A DNA stretch of 54,555 nt from positions 1-54,555 of the forward strand of contig JALSIX010000107.1 of NCBI GenBank assembly GCA_026989655.1, read 5' to 3'. The number at the start of each line of letters is the position of its first letter. The stretch's first letter is position 1. This stretch comes from Caldilineaceae bacterium. Its GTDB lineage: Bacteria; Chloroflexota; Anaerolineae; Caldilineales; Caldilineaceae. Position numbers and translations under genes: made by a program. Below are positions 7,491 through 15,653 of this stretch, in pieces. The notes below the pieces were generated by a model. The model searched no databases. It was not told the origin of the DNA and saw only the letters and a program-made list of their open reading frames with translations.

Positions 7491-8291
7491 ATGACCACCC
7501 TGATCTCCTTCCTCCTGGTCGTCGCCCTCTCCATGCTGATGGTCCGCATCGCCACGGTGGCCCTGACCCTGACCGGCCTCTCCCGGGAGGCCGCCCAGTT
7601 CCAGGCCCGCTCGGCCTTCACCGGCGTGGGCTTCACCACCTCCGAATCCGAGTACATCGTCCGCCATCCGGTCCGGCGGCGGATCATCCTATGGCTCATG
7701 CTCCTGGGCAACCTGGGCATCGTCACCGCGTTCTCCTCCCTGCTCCTGACCCTGGTGGAGACCGCGTCGCCCCAGGAGCGGTTCATCCGGGTCCTCTGGC
7801 TGCTCCTGGGACTGGGGCTCCTCTGGTTCCTGGGAACCAGCCGGTGGGTGGACCGCTACCTGACCCGCTGGATCGAGCGGGCCCTGCGCCGCTGGACCCG
7901 GCTGGAGGTGAAGGACTACGAGGCCCTGCTCCAGGTCTCCGGAGGCTTCCAGGTGGCCGAACTCCACGTGGAGCCCGGCTCCTGGCTGGCCGACAAGACC
8001 CTGGCCGAATGCCGGCTCAACCAGGAGGGGATCCTGGTCCTGGGCATCTTCCGCCCAGACGGCACCTACATCGGCGCGCCCCGGGGCTACACCCGGATCC
8101 AGGAGGGAGACATGTTGGTCCTCTACGGCCGGGGCGAGACCTTGGAGGAGCTGAGCCAACGGCTCCAGGGGGCCAGCGGAGACGCAGCCCATGAACGGGC
8201 CGTCCGCGAGCAGAACCTGGAGCTGGAGCGGGAACGGCTGGAGGATGAGCTGGCGGCCCAACGGAGGGCGGTCCCGTCCCCGAAGCCGTGA
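7491..8291 (+). CDS. Membrane protein with TrkA-C (RCK_C) domain
   Basis: A 266-residue protein. The N-terminal half has about three membrane segments and the sequence SAFTGVGFTTSESEYIV, which resembles the pore loop region of Trk/Ktr cation transporters. Residues about 140-230 form a TrkA-C-type domain (FQVAELHVEPGSWLADKTLAE...DGTYIGAPRGYTRIQEGDML), a fold that binds small nucleotide ligands in potassium uptake systems. The C terminus is a charged helix. It is too short to be a full Trk channel, so a regulatory or sensor role is plausible. It lies 39 bp after the protease gene, so co-transcription is likely. A hairpin at 8331 ends the unit. Confidence 0.7.
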   Translation: MTTLISFLLVVALSMLMVRIATVALTLTGLSREAAQFQARSAFTGVGFTTSESEYIVRHPVRRRIILWLMLLGNLGIVTAFSSLLLTLVETASPQERFIRVLWLLLGLGLLWFLGTSRWVDRYLTRWIERALRRWTRLEVKDYEALLQVSGGFQVAELHVEPGSWLADKTLAECRLNQEGILVLGIFRPDGTYIGAPRGYTRIQEGDMLVLYGRGETLEELSQRLQGASGDAAHERAVREQNLELERERLEDELAAQRRAVPSPKP

Positions 8292-8330
8292 GCGGAGCCG
8301 CTAAGAGAGCATCTGGACAGGGAGATCCAC

Positions 8331-8359
8331 GGGGGCACGGCCGGTATGGCCGTGCCCCC
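8331..8359. terminator. Hairpin between convergent genes
   Basis: A perfect 12-bp stem, GGGGGCACGGCC (8331-8342) and GGCCGTGCCCCC (8348-8359), with loop GGTAT. It lies between the convergent stops at 8291 and 8395 and could serve both strands. On the plus strand it is followed by CTTCCTTCT. The flanks resemble those of the hairpin at 9601. Confidence 0.7.
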
Positions 8360-8394
8360 CTTCCTTCTCGCGACGGCGCCTGGCTGGGCTCGCC

Positions 8395-8904
8395 TCACGC
8401 CTCTGGATCCTTCGCCAACAGGGCCACGGCTCCCAGGGCCGACAGACCGCTCAGGCTCAGGGGGGCCAGAGGCGGTGCCTCGCCCTCCTCCCCCTCGTCC
8501 TCCTCGTCCTCCTCGTCCTCGTCCCAGGTGTAGCGCACCAGGGTCGTGCCCGACGACCACTGGACCCGGGTGGAGGTCTCGAATCCCTCGGCCTCCAGCC
8601 GGGCCTCGTTGTGCTCCACCACCCCCACCAGGCCGGTCAGGGCCAGGAGCAGGAAGAGAAGCACGGCCACGTCACGAAGCCGTCCCCCCACGAAGAGCCC
8701 CACCAGGCCCAACAGCGCGCCCAGGATGCTCGCGCCCACTGCAACCCACTGGATGCCTTCGGTATGGTTGGTCCACAGCAGCTCGGCCAACAGGAAGAGA
8801 AAACCCAGAGCCACGAACACCAACAGAAGGGACGTCAGGTTCGCCTGCAGCCGGGCCTGGAGCTGCGCCCACAGGGAACGTGGAGTCGTTGTCCGCACGG
8901 TCAT
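8395..8904 (-). CDS. Membrane protein with acidic tract, putative TCS target
   Basis: A 169-residue protein of unknown family. Three hydrophobic segments (about residues 24-42, 52-72 and 78-94) are followed by a soluble stretch with an acidic run, WDEDEEDEEDEGEEGE, near residues 127-142, and a short final hydrophobic segment. The ATG at 8904 is chosen because GGAGGTGA stands 8 bases upstream; the frame also stays open to 9006. Its promoter region (9002-9066) carries three half-sites of the same kind as the DUF5666-protein gene at 11382, so I place it in the regulon of the 13165 response regulator. The acidic tract could bind cations; that is inference. Confidence 0.7.
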   Translation of the reverse strand: MTVRTTTPRSLWAQLQARLQANLTSLLLVFVALGFLFLLAELLWTNHTEGIQWVAVGASILGALLGLVGLFVGGRLRDVAVLLFLLLALTGLVGVVEHNEARLEAEGFETSTRVQWSSGTTLVRYTWDEDEEDEEDEGEEGEAPPLAPLSLSGLSALGAVALLAKDPEA

Positions 8905-9001
8905 GGTGTGCTCACCTCCTCTGTCCATGGGGATAACGGGCGACCGCGACCTCTCCCGCCGGGGAGAGAGCCGGGGAAGCTCGGTGGCCTCCCTGGGCTC
9001 C

Positions 9002-9066
9002 AGCATAGCCCAACCAGGCCGGGCCTGGGTTAACCGAGGGCGAACACCAGGTTAACGACAGGTGAA
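9002..9066 (-). promoter_or_regulatory. TTAACC-box promoter A
   Basis: Reading the minus strand: TTCACC (9066-9061), TTAACC (9055-9050, start-to-start 11), TTAACC (9033-9028, start-to-start 22), a 20-bp gap, then TATGCT (9007-9002) as -10. The proximal half-site occupies the -35 position and no TTGACA is present, as expected of an activator-dependent promoter. It serves the gene at 8395-8904, whose ATG is about 98 bp from the -10. Confidence 0.75.
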
Positions 9067-9094
9067 GGAGGTCCGAGGAAGCCCGGACCCCGCC

Positions 9095-9541
9095 TTACCT
9101 CGATCCAAAGGTGCGCCGAAGGCCTTCCACCAGTCGCTGCTGTTCCTCCGGGCTCAGCCGGGCCTCGGGACGGAGCCAGGTGTAGAGGGGAGGAGGCATC
9201 TCTCCCTCGAGGATGGTCTCCACGGCCTCCCGGAGCTCGTGGGACGAGAGCCCCTGGGGCGCGGAGAAGTTCAGCTCATCGCGGCCCGCGATCACGTCCC
9301 GAACCACCAGCAGGGACACAGGCGGCACATAGCTGTACCAGGGCCAGTGGGTCTCGTAGCTGTGGCAGTCCATGCACGCCCGCCGGGCCAGGCGCTCGGT
9401 CTCGGGGCTGTCCCAGGGGATGGGGGGGGCCGGTGGGTTGCGGCCGATGACGAAGACCAGGGCCAACACCTGGAGGATCAGGGCCGACCCAAGCACCAGG
9501 AGCAGGCCATACAGCAAGCCGGTACGTAGAAGACGGTTCAT
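9095..9541 (-). CDS. Haem-binding domain protein (single CxxCH)
   Basis: A 148-residue protein. Residues 5-33 form an N-terminal membrane anchor or signal segment (LLYGLLLVLGSALILQVLALVFVIG). A CMDCH haem-attachment motif follows at about residue 55, then the block HWPWYSYVPPVSLLVVRDV and, near the C terminus, EMPPPLYTWLRPEARLS. This is the arrangement of the Haem_bd family of periplasmic c-type haem proteins of unknown function. The ATG at 9541 is chosen because GAGGT lies upstream and the longer frame adds only an unconserved proline-rich tail. It is read away from the DUF5666 gene, with a terminator hairpin between them. Confidence 0.82.
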   Translation of the reverse strand: MNRLLRTGLLYGLLLVLGSALILQVLALVFVIGRNPPAPPIPWDSPETERLARRACMDCHSYETHWPWYSYVPPVSLLVVRDVIAGRDELNFSAPQGLSSHELREAVETILEGEMPPPLYTWLRPEARLSPEEQQRLVEGLRRTFGSR

Positions 9542-9600
9542 AGGCGGACCTCTGTGCTCTTCCCCTCGCGAGGGACACGAAGGACACGGACAGGGAGATC

Positions 9601-9641
9601 GCGCAGGGGCACCGGGCCGTATCGGCCCGGTGCCCCTGCGA
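9601..9641 (-). terminator. Strong hairpin after the DUF5666 gene
   Basis: An 18-bp perfect stem: left arm 9602-9619 begins CGCAGGGGCACC, right arm 9623-9640 is its complement, with a three-base TAT loop. It lies about 30 nt beyond the stop of the gene ending at 9670 (minus strand) and lacks a U-tract. A 13-base flank, GGACAGGGAGATC (9588-9600), is shared with the 8331 hairpin (8315-8327). Confidence 0.75.
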
Positions 9642-9669
9642 ACGGCTTCCCACACGGGGCTGGCTGGGT

Positions 9670-11271
9670 TCAGCGGGCCAGGGTCACCGGCAGGTAGACG
9701 GCATGGGTGAAGTTCACGCCGGTGATCCGGGTGGCCACCTCCACGCCATTGGCGTCGGTGTAGCTGTTCACCAGGGCAGTGTTGCCCGGTGCCAGGGCCA
9801 CGTTCAGGTCGTTCAGATCCGTGGCCGACGTCACCCGGTAGTCGACCCCGCCGATCCGCCAGACAGCCCCCGTCGCGGAGGCGGCCCGGACCGTACCCGT
9901 GGACTCAATGCGTCCCACCCGGTGGTTCGGGCCGGCGCCGGGCGGCACATGGGTCTCGATCTGGGTGGCCCAGTTCGTGCCGCCGTTCTGGGTGTACTCC
10001 ACCTCCACGTAGGCCCCCACGGCCAGGACGCCATGGCTCTCCTCGAACCGGGTCCGGGTGTCGGCCATGAAGGTCACTCCGTTGATCACCCAGGCGCCGT
10101 TGAAGCCGCCAGCGGGCATCTGTTCCACGAAACCGTAGAGCTTGTAGTGGTTGGGCCGGGTGATCACCCCCCCACTGTTGGACTCGGTCTCGATCTTTCG
10201 GGCCACCCGGGCATTGTTCGCGTCCAGGTAGTACTTCACCTTCACCAGGGCCCCCACCGTGAAGGGGCCGTGCTCCTGCTCGAATCGGGTGGACTGGGTG
10301 GCCCGGTACTCCACGCCACCGATGCGCCAGATCCCCCACAGCCCACCGCTGGGCATGGACTCGATCACACCGTAGGCGTGGCCCTCGTAGCCCTCGTAGA
10401 TGCCGTTGAAGTCGTCGTCGTCACCGGGTCGATCCCACGAGTACTTGGTCTCGATCTCGGTGGCGTGGTGGACGCCGTTGGCATCCGTGTAGAACTTCAC
10501 CTCCACCAGGACCCCCACCGCGAAGGGGCCGTGCTCCTGCTCGAATCGGGTGCCCGGATCGACCACGAAGGACATCCCGCCGATGCGCCAGGTGCCGAAC
10601 AGGCCGCTGCCGGGCAACTGTTCGATGAGGCCGTACATCTCGCCGTAGGCCTGGGAGCTCCCCCCACCGCTGCCGGAGCCCCCACACTCGTAGGCCCGCT
10701 TGGTCTCGATCTTGGTGGCCCGCCGAGGCGTGCCCTCCACGTAGTAGACCTCCACACAGGCCCCCACGGCCAGGGCGCCGTGCTCCTGCTCGAAGTACGT
10801 GTTGCTGTCGGCCTGGTAGGCGACACCGCCGATGCGCCAGGTGCCGAACAGGCCGTTGCTGGGCATCTGCTCCACCAGGCCGTAGACCTTGCCCGAGGAG
10901 GTGCCGCCGCCACCGCTGCTGCCGCACTTGTAGGGCTCCTTGCTCTCGATCTCGATGGCCCGATACCCGTTGCCCATCACCTGGTACTTCACCTCGGCAC
11001 AGGCCCCTACCTGGAGCAGGCCATGCTCCTGCTCGAACTTGGTGCCGGCGTCCGCGGTGAAGGTACGCCCGCCGACGACCCAGGTGCCGAACAGGCCGTT
11101 GCTGGGCATCTGCTCCACCAGGCCCCGCCACTCGGGCCACTCGTCCTGGGGAGCAGGGGCCTGGGCCAGGGAGACCGGTGCCGGGAAGAGCACCATCCCC
11201 AGGACCAGAGCCACGCCGGCCAGGTAGATCCGGTACCTGTGCAACCGTTGACCTCCATGGACTGCCTTCAT
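9670..11271 (-). CDS. Exported protein with six DUF5666-like repeats
   Basis: A 533-residue protein. A signal peptide (about residues 1-37, hydrophobic IYLAGVALVLGMVLFPAPVSLAQA) precedes six repeats of about 65 residues. Each has the pattern G-hydrophobic-hydrophobic-E-x-M/L-P, then GxW-hydrophobic-hydrophobic-GG, then T-x-F-E-Q-E-HG, VGAxVEV and A-x-x-IE(T/S)K. This is the DUF5666 type of small beta domain. Short Gly/Ser or acidic linkers (for example PGDDDDF) join repeats. The most N-terminal repeats are the most alike. The ATG at 11271 has GGAGG upstream; a GTG at 11280 is the alternative. It lies 110 bp after the related gene at 11382 and is probably co-transcribed. The ligand and role are unknown; a cell-surface scaffold is plausible. 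Confidence 0.82.
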   Translation of the reverse strand: MKAVHGGQRLHRYRIYLAGVALVLGMVLFPAPVSLAQAPAPQDEWPEWRGLVEQMPSNGLFGTWVVGGRTFTADAGTKFEQEHGLLQVGACAEVKYQVMGNGYRAIEIESKEPYKCGSSGGGGTSSGKVYGLVEQMPSNGLFGTWRIGGVAYQADSNTYFEQEHGALAVGACVEVYYVEGTPRRATKIETKRAYECGGSGSGGGSSQAYGEMYGLIEQLPGSGLFGTWRIGGMSFVVDPGTRFEQEHGPFAVGVLVEVKFYTDANGVHHATEIETKYSWDRPGDDDDFNGIYEGYEGHAYGVIESMPSGGLWGIWRIGGVEYRATQSTRFEQEHGPFTVGALVKVKYYLDANNARVARKIETESNSGGVITRPNHYKLYGFVEQMPAGGFNGAWVINGVTFMADTRTRFEESHGVLAVGAYVEVEYTQNGGTNWATQIETHVPPGAGPNHRVGRIESTGTVRAASATGAVWRIGGVDYRVTSATDLNDLNVALAPGNTALVNSYTDANGVEVATRITGVNFTHAVYLPVTLAR

Positions 11272-11381
11272 CGTCGTCACCTCCGTGCTCTATGGTTGGT
11301 GTGCATGGATCCGTCGGCGACACCACGAGGAGCCGCCCTCTCCATCACGCCGGTGTGGGAAAGGCCACCCGGCCGATTGCC

Positions 11382-12479
11382 TCACGGACTGCCCAGCCAG
11401 ATGACCCGGTTGAGGCCGTGCTCGTCCACATAGTAGATCACCTGGACCCGATCGCCGATCCGCAGCCCAGCCACCTGGGGTCCCACGGTGGAGTCCTGCC
11501 CCACGAAGAAGGGACGACGGCCCACCACCCAGATGCCCAGCACACCCTGGCGAGGCCGGTAGTAGACCGGTCCCCTGATCTCCGCCACAGCGATCTCCGG
11601 GACAGCGGGCTCGGCTGGGTCGGCCACCTGCGCCGTGGCGGGTGCCCCAGAAGCTGCAGAGGACGTCGAGGCAGGAGGGCGAGCGGACGGGGCGCTCGGG
11701 CTCCCCGATCGGTCGCCGGCAGAGCGGCGGATATCGTCCCGCTCCGACCGTCCCTCCCGAGAATCCGGACGGGGTGCCGTCCCTCGGCATTCCCAGGCGG
11801 GCTTGGCCTCGATCTTCACGGCCTGGGGCGGGTTCCCCGGCACATATTCCACCTCCGCGCACATGCCCACGCCCATGACCATCCCATGGGACTCGAACCG
11901 GGTGTAGGCGTCGGCCTGGTAGGTGATGCCGTCGATGACCCAGGTGCCCCGGCCGCCGGGCTGGACGCTGTCCACCACTCCATAGGCCTTTCGATAGGCC
12001 CGGTCGTCGTCCTCCCAGCCCCGACGAGGCCGGACCTGGGGCTGGGAAGACGGCTGGCTCTGCGACCCTCGATACCGATAGGCGTCGTCCGAGTCCCGGG
12101 ACGAGGAGTCGTCGTACCGGTGGTCGTCGCTCCGCCCATCGTCGTCGTACCGACGGCCATCGTCCCGATCCTCGTACCGGTACTCGTATCGGTCATCATG
12201 GTCCCGGTCGTCGTATCGGTCATCATCGTCCCGATCGTCGTCATCGTCGTCGTCCCAATCCCGATCGTCGTCATCGTCGTCGTCCCAGAGGGGGGCCTGC
12301 CAGTCTCCCGGGAATGGGGCCATCTGCTGCCCCTGAGAGGACGACGCGGCCATCGCGGACCGGCTCTCCACCGCCGTCCACGCCGCGGCCCACACCAGGA
12401 GCCACACCCCGATCCACAGGGCAAAGCGCATGCGAACAGGCACGGTTCGAACAGGCACAGAAGGATGTCGCCGATACAT
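11382..12479 (-). CDS. Exported Asp/Arg-rich protein with two DUF5666-like domains
   Basis: A 365-residue protein. An N-terminal hydrophobic export segment (FALWIGVWLLVWAAAWTAV, about residues 18-36) is followed by an extreme low-complexity region rich in Asp, Arg and Tyr (about residues 65-130, runs such as WDDDDDDDRDWDDDDDDD). A DUF5666-like domain follows (AYGVVDSVQ...GTWVIDGITYQADAYTRFE), then a Ser/Ala/Pro linker, and a second, diverged copy at the C terminus (GPVYYRPRQGVLGIWVVGRR). The ATG at 12479 has AGGAGG upstream. The promoter at 12571 has three TTAACC half-sites. The acidic tract may bind divalent cations. The family and function are otherwise unknown. Confidence 0.78.
   Translation of the reverse strand: MYRRHPSVPVRTVPVRMRFALWIGVWLLVWAAAWTAVESRSAMAASSSQGQQMAPFPGDWQAPLWDDDDDDDRDWDDDDDDDRDDDDRYDDRDHDDRYEYRYEDRDDGRRYDDDGRSDDHRYDDSSSRDSDDAYRYRGSQSQPSSQPQVRPRRGWEDDDRAYRKAYGVVDSVQPGGRGTWVIDGITYQADAYTRFESHGMVMGVGMCAEVEYVPGNPPQAVKIEAKPAWECRGTAPRPDSREGRSERDDIRRSAGDRSGSPSAPSARPPASTSSAASGAPATAQVADPAEPAVPEIAVAEIRGPVYYRPRQGVLGIWVVGRRPFFVGQDSTVGPQVAGLRIGDRVQVIYYVDEHGLNRVIWLGSP
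12231..12287. repeat. Tandem repeat coding for the poly-Asp tract
   Basis: Two perfect 27-bp copies at 12231-12257 and 12261-12287 (period 30 bp) begin CCGATCGTCGTC and encode alternating Asp runs. The surrounding 12100-12290 is also built from GTCGTC/GTCATC units, so the tract length is likely to vary by slippage. Confidence 0.8.
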
Positions 12480-12570
12480 GGCAGTTTGCCTCCTATCACC
12501 GCTGCTTGGTTCAGAAACGGAGTCGGTTGAAGGAAGGGGGCCTCGAGGAACTCCCCTGTTCCGCCTCTGC

Positions 12571-12635
12571 AATATAGAAGAGGGGCCGACGGCCGTGGTT
12601 AATACAGGCCGAGGAACAGGTTAACATCACGTTAA
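12571..12635 (-). promoter_or_regulatory. TTAACC-box promoter B
   Basis: Minus strand: TTAACG (12635-12630), TTAACC (12624-12619, step 11), TTAACC (12602-12597, step 22), 20-bp gap, TATATT -10 (12576-12571). The architecture is the same as at 9002-9066. The start would fall near 12564, with an 85-nt leader before the ATG at 12479. Confidence 0.8.
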
Positions 12636-12720
12636 CCTCCAGAAAACGCAGGGAACTCCGGGTGCCTGGAGAGGGCGCCGGCCCGATGGCCTGGATCCCG
12701 CGACCGGGTCGCCCACGCTT

Positions 12721-12785
12721 TTAACCTGCTCTTAACCCGCCGATGGCCTGGCCTTCACCCGTCCGGCCGTCTCCTGTGCCATAGT
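12721..12785 (+). promoter_or_regulatory. TTAACC-box promoter C (probable autoregulation)
   Basis: Plus strand: TTAACC (12721-12726), TTAACC (12732-12737, step 11), TTCACC (12754-12759, step 22), 20-bp gap, CATAGT (12780-12785) as a weak -10. Spacing and order are identical to promoters A and B, but it points toward the response regulator/kinase operon. Confidence 0.65.
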
Positions 12786-12997
12786 TCTCCATGGCCGGGT
12801 TCGTTGTGGTCGCGTCAGGTGCTCCTGCCCTTTGCGTCCAGCTACCAGCCTGTGGCCGTGGCCCTGGGCCGGGGAGCCTGTGGCTGCTGTCTGTGCTCCG
12901 GGTCGTCAGCTTCTGTGTGCGCAGATACACGGGCCCAAAGCACTGGCGGCTCCACGACGCCAGCTTTCTGGCCTGCATCCTCGTCCTGGGCCAGCCA

Positions 12998-13006
12998 TGC
13001 TATACT
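12998..13006 (+). promoter_or_regulatory. Extended -10 promoter for the TCS operon
   Basis: TGCTATACT at 12998-13006 is a full extended -10 (TGnTATACT) without a clear -35. The start near 13013 would leave a leader of about 150 nt before the ATG at 13165. It may give constitutive expression, with promoter C adding feedback. Confidence 0.6.
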
Positions 13007-13164
13007 GACAGGCACGGACACCGCTCATCCGGGGGCATCCGCCGGATATGTGGTCACCGGGGACGTGGTGGCCTCCTGGTGGGGCACCGGCTCTGGCCCC
13101 CGTCCTGAGGGCAGGGAGTCCCCAGGCCTGGACGTTGACACGCCTTCACCGTGAGCAAGGGACC

Positions 13165-13890
13165 ATGCGCACCACTATCCTGTTGGCCGATGACGACGAG
13201 ATGATCGTGGAGGCCCTGAGCTACCAGTTGGAACAGGAGGGCTACCGGGTGCTCAAGGCCTACGACGGGGAGGAGGCCCTGACCCGGGCCCGGGAGCAGA
13301 ATCCCGATCTGATCCTCCTGGACGTGATGATGCCCAAGAAGCACGGCTGGGAGGTCTGCCAGACCCTGCGCCAGGAGAGCGCCGTGCCCATCCTGATGCT
13401 CACCGCCCGGGGAGACGAGATGGATCGGGTGCTGGGCCTGGAGCTGGGCGCGGACGACTACATCGTCAAGCCCTTCAGCTTCCGGGAGCTGCTGGCCCGG
13501 ATCCACGCCCACCTGCGGCGGATGGAGCTCATGCGGGAGTCCGCCCGTGGGCAGGCCAGCCACCCGGTGGTGACCATCGGCCCCATCACCATCGACAAGC
13601 GGCGCTACCAGGTGCTCCGCCACGGAAAGCCCGTGCACCTCTCCCAACGGGAGTACGAGCTGCTGATCGCGCTCCAGGAGGCCCAGGGGGCTGTGGTGAA
13701 ACGGGGAGATCTGCTGGATCGGGTCTGGGGGGAGAACTGGATCGGGGATCCCCGGACCCTGGACGTCCACATCCGCTGGCTGCGGGAGAAGCTGGAGGAC
13801 GATCCCTCCACCCCTCGGCTGATCCGCACCGTTCGGGGCGTGGGCTATCGTCTGGTGGCCCCGGAGGAGTTGGGAGGCGACGAACCATGA
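13165..13890 (+). CDS. OmpR/PhoB-family response regulator
   Basis: A 241-residue regulator. The receiver domain (residues 1-120) has the acidic pair at 9-11, the phospho-acceptor Asp53 (LILLDVMMP), the switch Thr in LMLTARG and Lys in IVKPFSF. Residues about 140-235 are an OmpR-type winged helix (VHLSQREYELLIAL...DPRTLDVHIRWLREKLEDDP...RTVRGVGYRL). Family members bind direct repeats at about 11-bp spacing, and three such arrays (TTAACC type) surround this locus. I infer that it activates the genes at 8395 and 11382 and its own operon. It overlaps the kinase gene by four bases (ATGA), so the two are translationally coupled. Confidence 0.93.
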   Translation: MRTTILLADDDEMIVEALSYQLEQEGYRVLKAYDGEEALTRAREQNPDLILLDVMMPKKHGWEVCQTLRQESAVPILMLTARGDEMDRVLGLELGADDYIVKPFSFRELLARIHAHLRRMELMRESARGQASHPVVTIGPITIDKRRYQVLRHGKPVHLSQREYELLIALQEAQGAVVKRGDLLDRVWGENWIGDPRTLDVHIRWLREKLEDDPSTPRLIRTVRGVGYRLVAPEELGGDEP

Positions 13891-15653
13891 GCGACGAGCC
13901 CCCCCGGCAGGGGATCGGAGTCGGGGTCCGCTCTCTGTGGGCGTGGCTGTCCCGGCCCTGGCGGCGCAGCCTCCGGGCCCGTCTCGTCGCGTCCTTCGGG
14001 CTGGTCTTCTTCCTGGCCCTGGTGCTGCTCCTGGCCCGCATGGGCCAGGTGATCTACACCGCGCAGCTGGAGGAAGCGGAACACAACCTGGAGATCGAGG
14101 CCTTCCTGGCCGCGAACGCCCTGGAGGATCCCCTCAGCGGCTACGCGGTGGAGTTCGAACGCCACGAGCTGGAGGAGAACGACGAGGGGGAGTGGGAGAG
14201 AGACGACCCGGAGGATGAAGCCGACGAGGAGGCAGAGTGGGGACCCAGGGCCCAGGGCCTTGAGGGCCTTCTGCGGGGTGGCCGCGGAAACCCCGGGACA
14301 CGGGGAACCATGGGGAACGGAGATCGGCCCGGCCCGGCCCGGCCCGACGGCCGGCTCCAGTACGTGGCCGAGAGCTTCGCCCAGGATCTGGATGCCCGGG
14401 TGACCATCCTGGATGCGCGAGGACATCCGCTGGCCGACAGCCACTACCCACCCCATCAGATCCCAAACCAGTTCCACCAGACGGAGATCCAGGCGGCGCT
14501 GCGTGGGACCGAACAGCATGATGTCCGCCGGGATCCCCTCTCGGGGGAGTGGACGATCTTCGCGGCGGCCCCCATCCAGCAGGGCAGCCGGATCCTGGGG
14601 CTGGTCCAGCTCTCCCAACCCCTGGATCGGGTGGTCTCCCACACCCAACAGCTCGTGAGCAGCCTGCTTTTCACCGGCCTGGCCGCGTTGCTCCTGATGA
14701 CCGTCCTGGGGCTCTGGATGAGCCGCCAGCTGGTGGAACCGGTCCGCCGCCTGGAGCAGGCCGCCCTGGCCATGGCCGCAGGCGATCTGGAGCAACGGGT
14801 CCAGATCGACGCGGAGGACGAGCTGGGAGCACTGGCCCGGGCCTTCAACTACATGGCCGCCCGGCTCCAGGACACCCTGGAGCGCCAGCGGCTCTTCGTG
14901 GCCAACGCGAGCCACGAGCTGCGCACCCCCCTGACGAACATCAAGCTGCGGAGCGAGGCCCTGGTGAACGAGAGCGTGCCCGACCCGGCCATGGCCCAAC
15001 GCTACCTGGCGGAGATCGATCGGGAGGCCGATCGGCTGACCCGGCTGGCCAATACCCTGTTGGATCTCTCCCGGCTGGAGAGCACCGACCCGCCGCCGCC
15101 CTCGAAGCCGGTCCATCCGGTCCAGATCCTGAGGGCCATGGTGCCCGGGATGACGGCCCGAGCCCAGGCCAAGGGCGTGGCCTTCCAGGCCACCCTGGCG
15201 GAGGACACGCCCCCGGTCCAGGTATGGCCGGAACAGCTGGAGGCCATCGTGGTGAACCTGGTGGACAACGCGATCAAGTACACCCCCGAGGGCGGGCAGG
15301 TAGCTCTCTCCACCGGCGAGGCCGATGGCCGGTGCCGCATCCAGATCGCGGACACCGGGGTGGGCATTCCACCGGAGGACCTGCCCCACATTTTCGACCG
15401 CTTCTACCGGGTGGACAAGGCCCGAAGCCGGCAGGAGGCCGGGAGCGGTTGGGGCAGCGGCGCGGGGCTGGGGCTCTACATCGCCAAGACTCTGGTGGAA
15501 CAGAACGGGGGACACATCCGGGTGGAGAGCACCCCCGGGCAGGGGACCACCTTCACCGTGGAGTTTCCCGCGGCCGAGTGGCCTCCAGGCCCGGGTCCCT
15601 CCTCGACAGGGCCCCAGGCCGGCCCTGTCCGGAGGGGTGGCTCCCGGAGATGA
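13887..15653 (+). CDS. Sensor histidine kinase with acidic extracytoplasmic loop
   Basis: A 588-residue membrane kinase. The order is TM1 (about residues 33-52), an extracytoplasmic sensor loop of about 200 residues, TM2 (about 254-275), HAMP, HisKA with phospho-acceptor His343 (ASHELRTPL), and HATPase with N (NLVDNAIKYT), G1 (DTGVGIPPEDLPHIF) and G2 (GLGLYIAK) boxes. The sensor loop holds a strongly acidic run (about residues 92-115, ELEENDEGEWERDDPEDEAD) followed by a Gly/Pro-rich segment. PhoQ-type sensors use acidic surfaces to read divalent cations or cationic peptides; the same logic may apply here, but that is inference. It is the cognate partner of the overlapping response regulator. 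Confidence 0.92.
   Translation: MSDEPPRQGIGVGVRSLWAWLSRPWRRSLRARLVASFGLVFFLALVLLLARMGQVIYTAQLEEAEHNLEIEAFLAANALEDPLSGYAVEFERHELEENDEGEWERDDPEDEADEEAEWGPRAQGLEGLLRGGRGNPGTRGTMGNGDRPGPARPDGRLQYVAESFAQDLDARVTILDARGHPLADSHYPPHQIPNQFHQTEIQAALRGTEQHDVRRDPLSGEWTIFAAAPIQQGSRILGLVQLSQPLDRVVSHTQQLVSSLLFTGLAALLLMTVLGLWMSRQLVEPVRRLEQAALAMAAGDLEQRVQIDAEDELGALARAFNYMAARLQDTLERQRLFVANASHELRTPLTNIKLRSEALVNESVPDPAMAQRYLAEIDREADRLTRLANTLLDLSRLESTDPPPPSKPVHPVQILRAMVPGMTARAQAKGVAFQATLAEDTPPVQVWPEQLEAIVVNLVDNAIKYTPEGGQVALSTGEADGRCRIQIADTGVGIPPEDLPHIFDRFYRVDKARSRQEAGSGWGSGAGLGLYIAKTLVEQNGGHIRVESTPGQGTTFTVEFPAAEWPPGPGPSSTGPQAGPVRRGGSRR

Follow-up and report, generated by a model that had tools for sequence, protein, structure and literature searches.

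The response regulator encoded at 13165 and the sensor kinase encoded at 13887, together with three promoters (A, B, and C) that carry the same repeat array, very probably form a small, autoregulated local regulon of the OmpR/PhoB type, activated by the 13165 protein. Judged from sequence comparison, the 13165 system would be a new and well-supported example of a type of gene control that is already known. The features concerned are listed in Table 1, with positions in the window, i.e., the whole stretch of 54,555 nucleotides analyzed (contig JALSIX010000107.1 of a Caldilineaceae bacterium). In this way a binding motif, a promoter layout with fixed spacing, and a set of targets become available for an unnamed two-component system that recurs in many families of a single class (probably Anaerolineae, genetically little studied).

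Table 1. Promoters and genes of the 13165 locus. Weak third half-sites are in parentheses.
Feature	Position	Strand	Description
Promoter A	9002..9066	-	TTCACC-N5-TTAACC-N5-(TTCGCC)-N5-TTAACC-N20-TATGCT; -10 at 9007-9002; ahead of the acidic-tailed membrane protein gene
Promoter B	12571..12635	-	TTAACG-N5-TTAACC-N5-(CTCGGC)-N5-TTAACC-N20-TATATT; -10 at 12576-12571; ahead of the DUF5666 pair
Promoter C	12721..12785	+	TTAACC-N5-TTAACC-N5-(ATGGCC)-N5-TTCACC-N20-CATAGT; -10 at 12780-12785; ahead of regulator and kinase
OmpR/PhoB-family response regulator	13165..13890	+	Response_reg and Trans_reg_C; recognition helix RTLDVHIRWLREK; own clade in tree
Sensor histidine kinase	13887..15653	+	HAMP, HisKA, HATPase_c; acidic stretch in sensor region
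DUF5666 protein with poly-Asp tract	11382..12480	-	Likely start ATG 12480
Six-repeat DUF5666 protein	9670..11272	-	Second gene after promoter B
Small membrane protein, acidic tail	8395..8904	-	Homologues adjoin the regulator in three relatives
Haem_bd (PF14376) protein	9095..9541	-	Between a perfect hairpin and promoter A

In the window, the pattern TTMACS-N5-TTMACS-N16-TTMACC matches exactly at three places, 9066–9028 (minus strand), 12635–12597 (minus strand), and 12721–12759 (plus strand), all within 4 kb of the regulator, while 100 dinucleotide shuffles of the window gave no match with two mismatches permitted. The same three sites are the only exact matches in the entire genome (4,086,003 bases, 4.09 Mb), where the scan returned elsewhere just two poor matches with two mismatches, and the reversed pattern, used as a control, returned none. 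A preliminary description of this DNA had given the three promoters one shared layout, with no further clusters in the window and no TTGACA at any of them, and had proposed a genome-wide scan as a check on random occurrence. Its coordinates are right to the base, the exact pattern occurs in the window at those three sites alone, the genome scan speaks against random frequency, and a sigma-70 scan of 8250–13200 found no TTGACA-type promoter.

Other parts of that description need adjustment. It had read each promoter as half-site, 11-bp step, half-site, 22-bp step, half-site, 20-bp gap, and -10. This spacing is exact, and the gap between the last half-site and the -10 is exactly N20 at A, B, and C, but the 22-bp step conceals two 11-bp steps with a degenerate third half-site (TTCGCC, CTCGGC, and ATGGCC, respectively). 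A better reading of each array is four CTTAAC(C) half-sites in 11-bp phase, the third of them weak, followed after exactly 20 bp by the -10. Also, the proximal half-site had been placed on the -35; with a 20-bp gap it overlaps part of the canonical -35 (17-bp spacing) but not the whole hexamer. The proposed -10 pattern TAnnnT describes promoters A and B, but not promoter C, whose CATAGT departs from the strict form. In a profile of 40 related arrays, half-sites 1, 2, and 4 are near-invariant as (C)TTAAC(C/A), and the third has T at base 2 in 85% and A at base 4 in 70%. After the last half-site come N20 and TAnnnT; a G stands two bases 5' of the -10 in 80% of the arrays and a T immediately precedes it in half, resembling an extended -10. 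A looser pair, TTMACC-N5-TTMACC with one mismatch, gave 40 matches in the genome versus nine for its reverse and was rejected as too loose for defining a regulon, because most of the matches were TTCACC-containing words away from the locus.

The 13165 protein has the attributes of the OmpR/PhoB family, namely a receiver domain (PF00072, E 6e-32) and a Trans_reg_C winged helix (PF00486, E 1.5e-27), with 11-bp head-to-tail repeats present as sequence, and none of the NCBIfam equivalogs among the matches listed passes its cut-off. With the 13887 kinase it makes up a two-component pair of this family. The sensor region of the kinase has a weak sCache-like match, below cut-off, and its acidic stretch is found in most orthologues, being missing in genomes G010 and G013. 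Acidic stretches (at least 16 D/E per 40 residues) occur in three of the 36 window ORFs longer than 150 aa, one behind each promoter. The positions 8395 and 11382 are the 3' ends of mechanically listed ORFs, and translation probably begins at ATG 8904 and ATG 12480, both of which have a Shine-Dalgarno sequence; these starts were preferred because the listed starts, 9006 and 12572, fall within the promoters. In the gap between the two DUF5666 genes (11280–11382), neither an array nor a terminator was found, and the six-repeat gene is probably co-transcribed with the gene upstream. No terminator was found that clearly separates the minus-strand genes, and whether the Haem_bd protein belongs to the regulon is uncertain. 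The 8395 protein has no match in Pfam or NCBIfam.

Close orthologues of the regulator (62%–74% identity) were found in ten further genomes of the same family, and their neighborhoods were examined. With the window's genome included, all 11 same-family genomes that have a close orthologue carry an array near it, located upstream of the regulator–kinase operon, of a divergent gene, or of both. Top array scores were 18.7–22.4, compared with 16.8–18.5 for the best shuffle (20 shuffles per locus), and every locus beat its own shuffles. In six of these genomes (G027, G005, G018, G012, G014, and G011), the array is followed by genes for a small envelope protein (acidic or of the PepSY type), ApbE, a membrane protein, the regulator, and the kinase. 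In G008, as in the window, it stands ahead of a D-rich and a six-repeat DUF5666 gene, divergent from the regulator and kinase genes, and in G010, G013, and G009 it stands ahead of a homologue of the 8395 protein, likewise divergent. These divergent loci have one array per direction, clearly so in G013 and G009, with a weaker regulator-side array in G008 and a weak one in G010. The paired arrays and the 8395 homologues therefore support autoregulation and the inclusion of the gene behind promoter A, which in the window lies 4 kb from the regulator. Two additional arrays were seen in this family. A third one in G008 (L178 253, G008:C247) is downstream of the six-repeat DUF5666 gene and directed off the contig end, a location corresponding to that of promoter A in the window, and a second one in the G011 cluster (L219 3258, G011:C127:67219-67257) is ahead of a multihaem c-type cytochrome gene.

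A class-wide search that required N19–21 before TAnnnT found 25 sites in 22 of 396 genomes, and its reversed control found none. Nearly all of these sites have exactly N20; part of the N20 set was chosen by the 19–21 rule, and the same-family arrays were found independently of it. Most of the sites are ahead of small-protein or ApbE genes and one is ahead of a DUF5666 gene (G245), while at two loci a c-type cytochrome-like gene is divergent from the array. After subtraction of the G331 pst and G244 loci, 13 of the 23 remaining sites have, no more than 6 kb away, a regulator with at least 54% identity to 13165. Counting against the link, no close regulator adjoins the N20 array in G242, G226, G127, G146, G199, G217, and G281, for some of them because the contig ends. 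A variant of the search with one mismatch and no -10 was discarded, as many unrelated matches were mixed in. When the 40-array profile was applied to 79 loci that had been retrieved by similarity of the regulator alone, a single clear match was obtained (score 19.9; next best 8.2; reversed-profile maximum 4.8). It is from Candidatus Roseilinea, where the array precedes a DUF5666-like gene (assigned by eye from the sequence), the regulator, and the kinase. Our literature searches on TTAACA with PhoP and on OmpR-type motifs of Chloroflexi found nothing relevant.

These comparisons bear out the small autoregulated regulon of the preliminary description, in which the 8395 membrane protein, the DUF5666 genes at 11382 and 9670, and the kinase operon had been counted as members. 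Arrays of the same layout accompany the 13165 orthologues and elsewhere precede the regulator and kinase genes (G008, G009, G013, and weakly G010) or homologues of the other targets, be it the membrane protein beside the regulator (G009, G010, and G013) or the DUF5666 proteins (G008, G245, and Roseilinea). That the likeness of the three promoters is due to chance or derived from a repeat is hardly conceivable: besides the empty shuffles and the uniqueness of the pattern in the genome, its spacing is kept across many genomes despite unlike spacers, and the comparative data refute this explanation.

The half-site word itself has a wider distribution. The cyanobacterial SphR Pho box, CTTAACCT, is composed of 8-bp repeats with 3-bp linkers (PMC1906773), and has in common with the arrays described here the word CTTAACC, the 11-bp head-to-tail phase, and a regulator of the OmpR/PhoB family. 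Moreover, the same four-repeat CTTAACC array was found ahead of pstS-pstC-pstA operons (pst genes recognized by sequence, without a family scan) in several other families of the class and in the same-family genomes G004 and G372, and the recognition helix RTVDVHIRWLREK is nearly identical to the RTLDVHIRWLREK of 13165. Since the pst loci share the array, the box word alone cannot identify the regulator, and the CTTAACC box would be common to phosphate regulation rather than private to 13165. It follows from these likenesses that the boxes could be Pho boxes of the ordinary sort, recognized by a phosphate regulator of the PhoB type, the three units belonging to a phosphate regulon and not to that of 13165. 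We consider this quite improbable, as several findings stand against it. The pst operon of the window's own genome (C84) has no array, and no other intact regulator with a 13165-type helix was found in that genome. The -10 spacing is 20 bp in the 13165 set but 9 bp, one helical turn closer, in seven of the ten promoters of pst operons. In the regulator tree, those linked to N20 arrays form one clade (support 100/99), with the pst-linked regulators outside it. Finally, 13165 scores 232.5 bits against the PhoB equivalog TIGR02154, whose cut-off is 296.2. Compared with the SphR system, the 13165 locus has no phosphate genes and has other targets, with four half-sites of which the third is weak and the last ends 20 bp before the -10. 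In the pst promoters of the same class (L196–L198, L202, L205, L210, and L213), the third half-site is often TTGAAx or TTCTTx.

Given the shared array and the near-same helix, it is possible, and we suggest it tentatively, that in this one class there are two paralogous regulons which are kept apart by promoter geometry, N9 for phosphate and N20 for 13165. If so, the register of the repeats would set which regulator can activate, and, should the N9/N20 split hold, it would offer a simple test of how paralogous regulators sharing one recognition word avoid crosstalk. One more protein of the window's genome has the recognition helix RTLDVHIRWLRE, as in 13165 (G000:C113:21633; L238 5806-6855); its receiver is apparently degenerate, and it could also read the boxes. 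CTTAACC arrays were also seen ahead of a surE-like gene in three genomes (L194 3191, L195 1710, and L210 3055), so that this gene, too, may be a target of the Pho-type box.

As for the mechanism in the window, phosphorylated 13165 would probably bind head-to-tail along the four 11-bp-phased CTTAAC(C) half-sites and, covering the DNA upstream of the -35 position and part of that position itself, would recruit RNA polymerase to promoters that have no -35. It would thus raise the expression of its own operon from promoter C, of the pair of DUF5666 envelope proteins from promoter B, and of the acidic-tailed membrane protein from promoter A. Activation from sites that approach the -35 from its upstream side and partly cover it is known for PhoB-like proteins. 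The overlap of the array with part of the -35 region would also suit a repressor of A, B, and C, but we find such a role unlikely for 13165, as a repressor would have no TTGACA to compete with at these promoters, and an array that lies upstream of and reaches the -35 at one single spacing is what is generally known of promoters activated by PhoB-like proteins.

With 13165 as an activator, the operon under the same regulator and array in the relatives would encode ApbE and a membrane protein together with a small protein, acidic or of the PepSY type, and in some cases a c-type cytochrome. The regulon would thus probably match redox or cation-binding proteins of the envelope to an external signal, perceived through the acidic sensor region of the kinase. 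Our guess is that cations or redox state are sensed at the envelope, which fits the acidic stretches and the ApbE, PepSY, haem, and cytochrome genes of the relatives. The DUF5666 proteins and the membrane protein of the 8395 type, neither of which has a known function, are tied in this manner to the same regulator as the ApbE/PepSY operons, which suggests that all of them may share an envelope redox or metal role. As in the ApbE/flavinylation clusters described in two papers (PMC8238504, PMC11334425), the regulon of the relatives has ApbE near a ferric reductase-like membrane protein and small proteins of the envelope, and the passages of these papers retrieved by term searches mention no such regulator or box and no Chloroflexi. 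ApbE was absent among the seven window proteins scanned and present in relatives such as L175, whose membrane protein resembling ferric reductase has no match in Pfam or NCBIfam.

Some minor features of the locus were also noted. The leader behind promoter C (12791–13160) extends for ~370 nt to the regulator and no clearly coding ORF was seen in it; a TATACT near 13001 may be the -10 of a second promoter. Two hairpins, at 8313–8360 and 9588–9640, have a common GGACAGGGAGATC lead, of which the window holds only two copies, and a GGGGCAC...GTGCCCC stem. The second of them lies between the genes for DUF5666 and Haem_bd; its stem is long and perfect, and no T-run goes with it. The two resemble copies of a single small element, either a repeat or a terminator.
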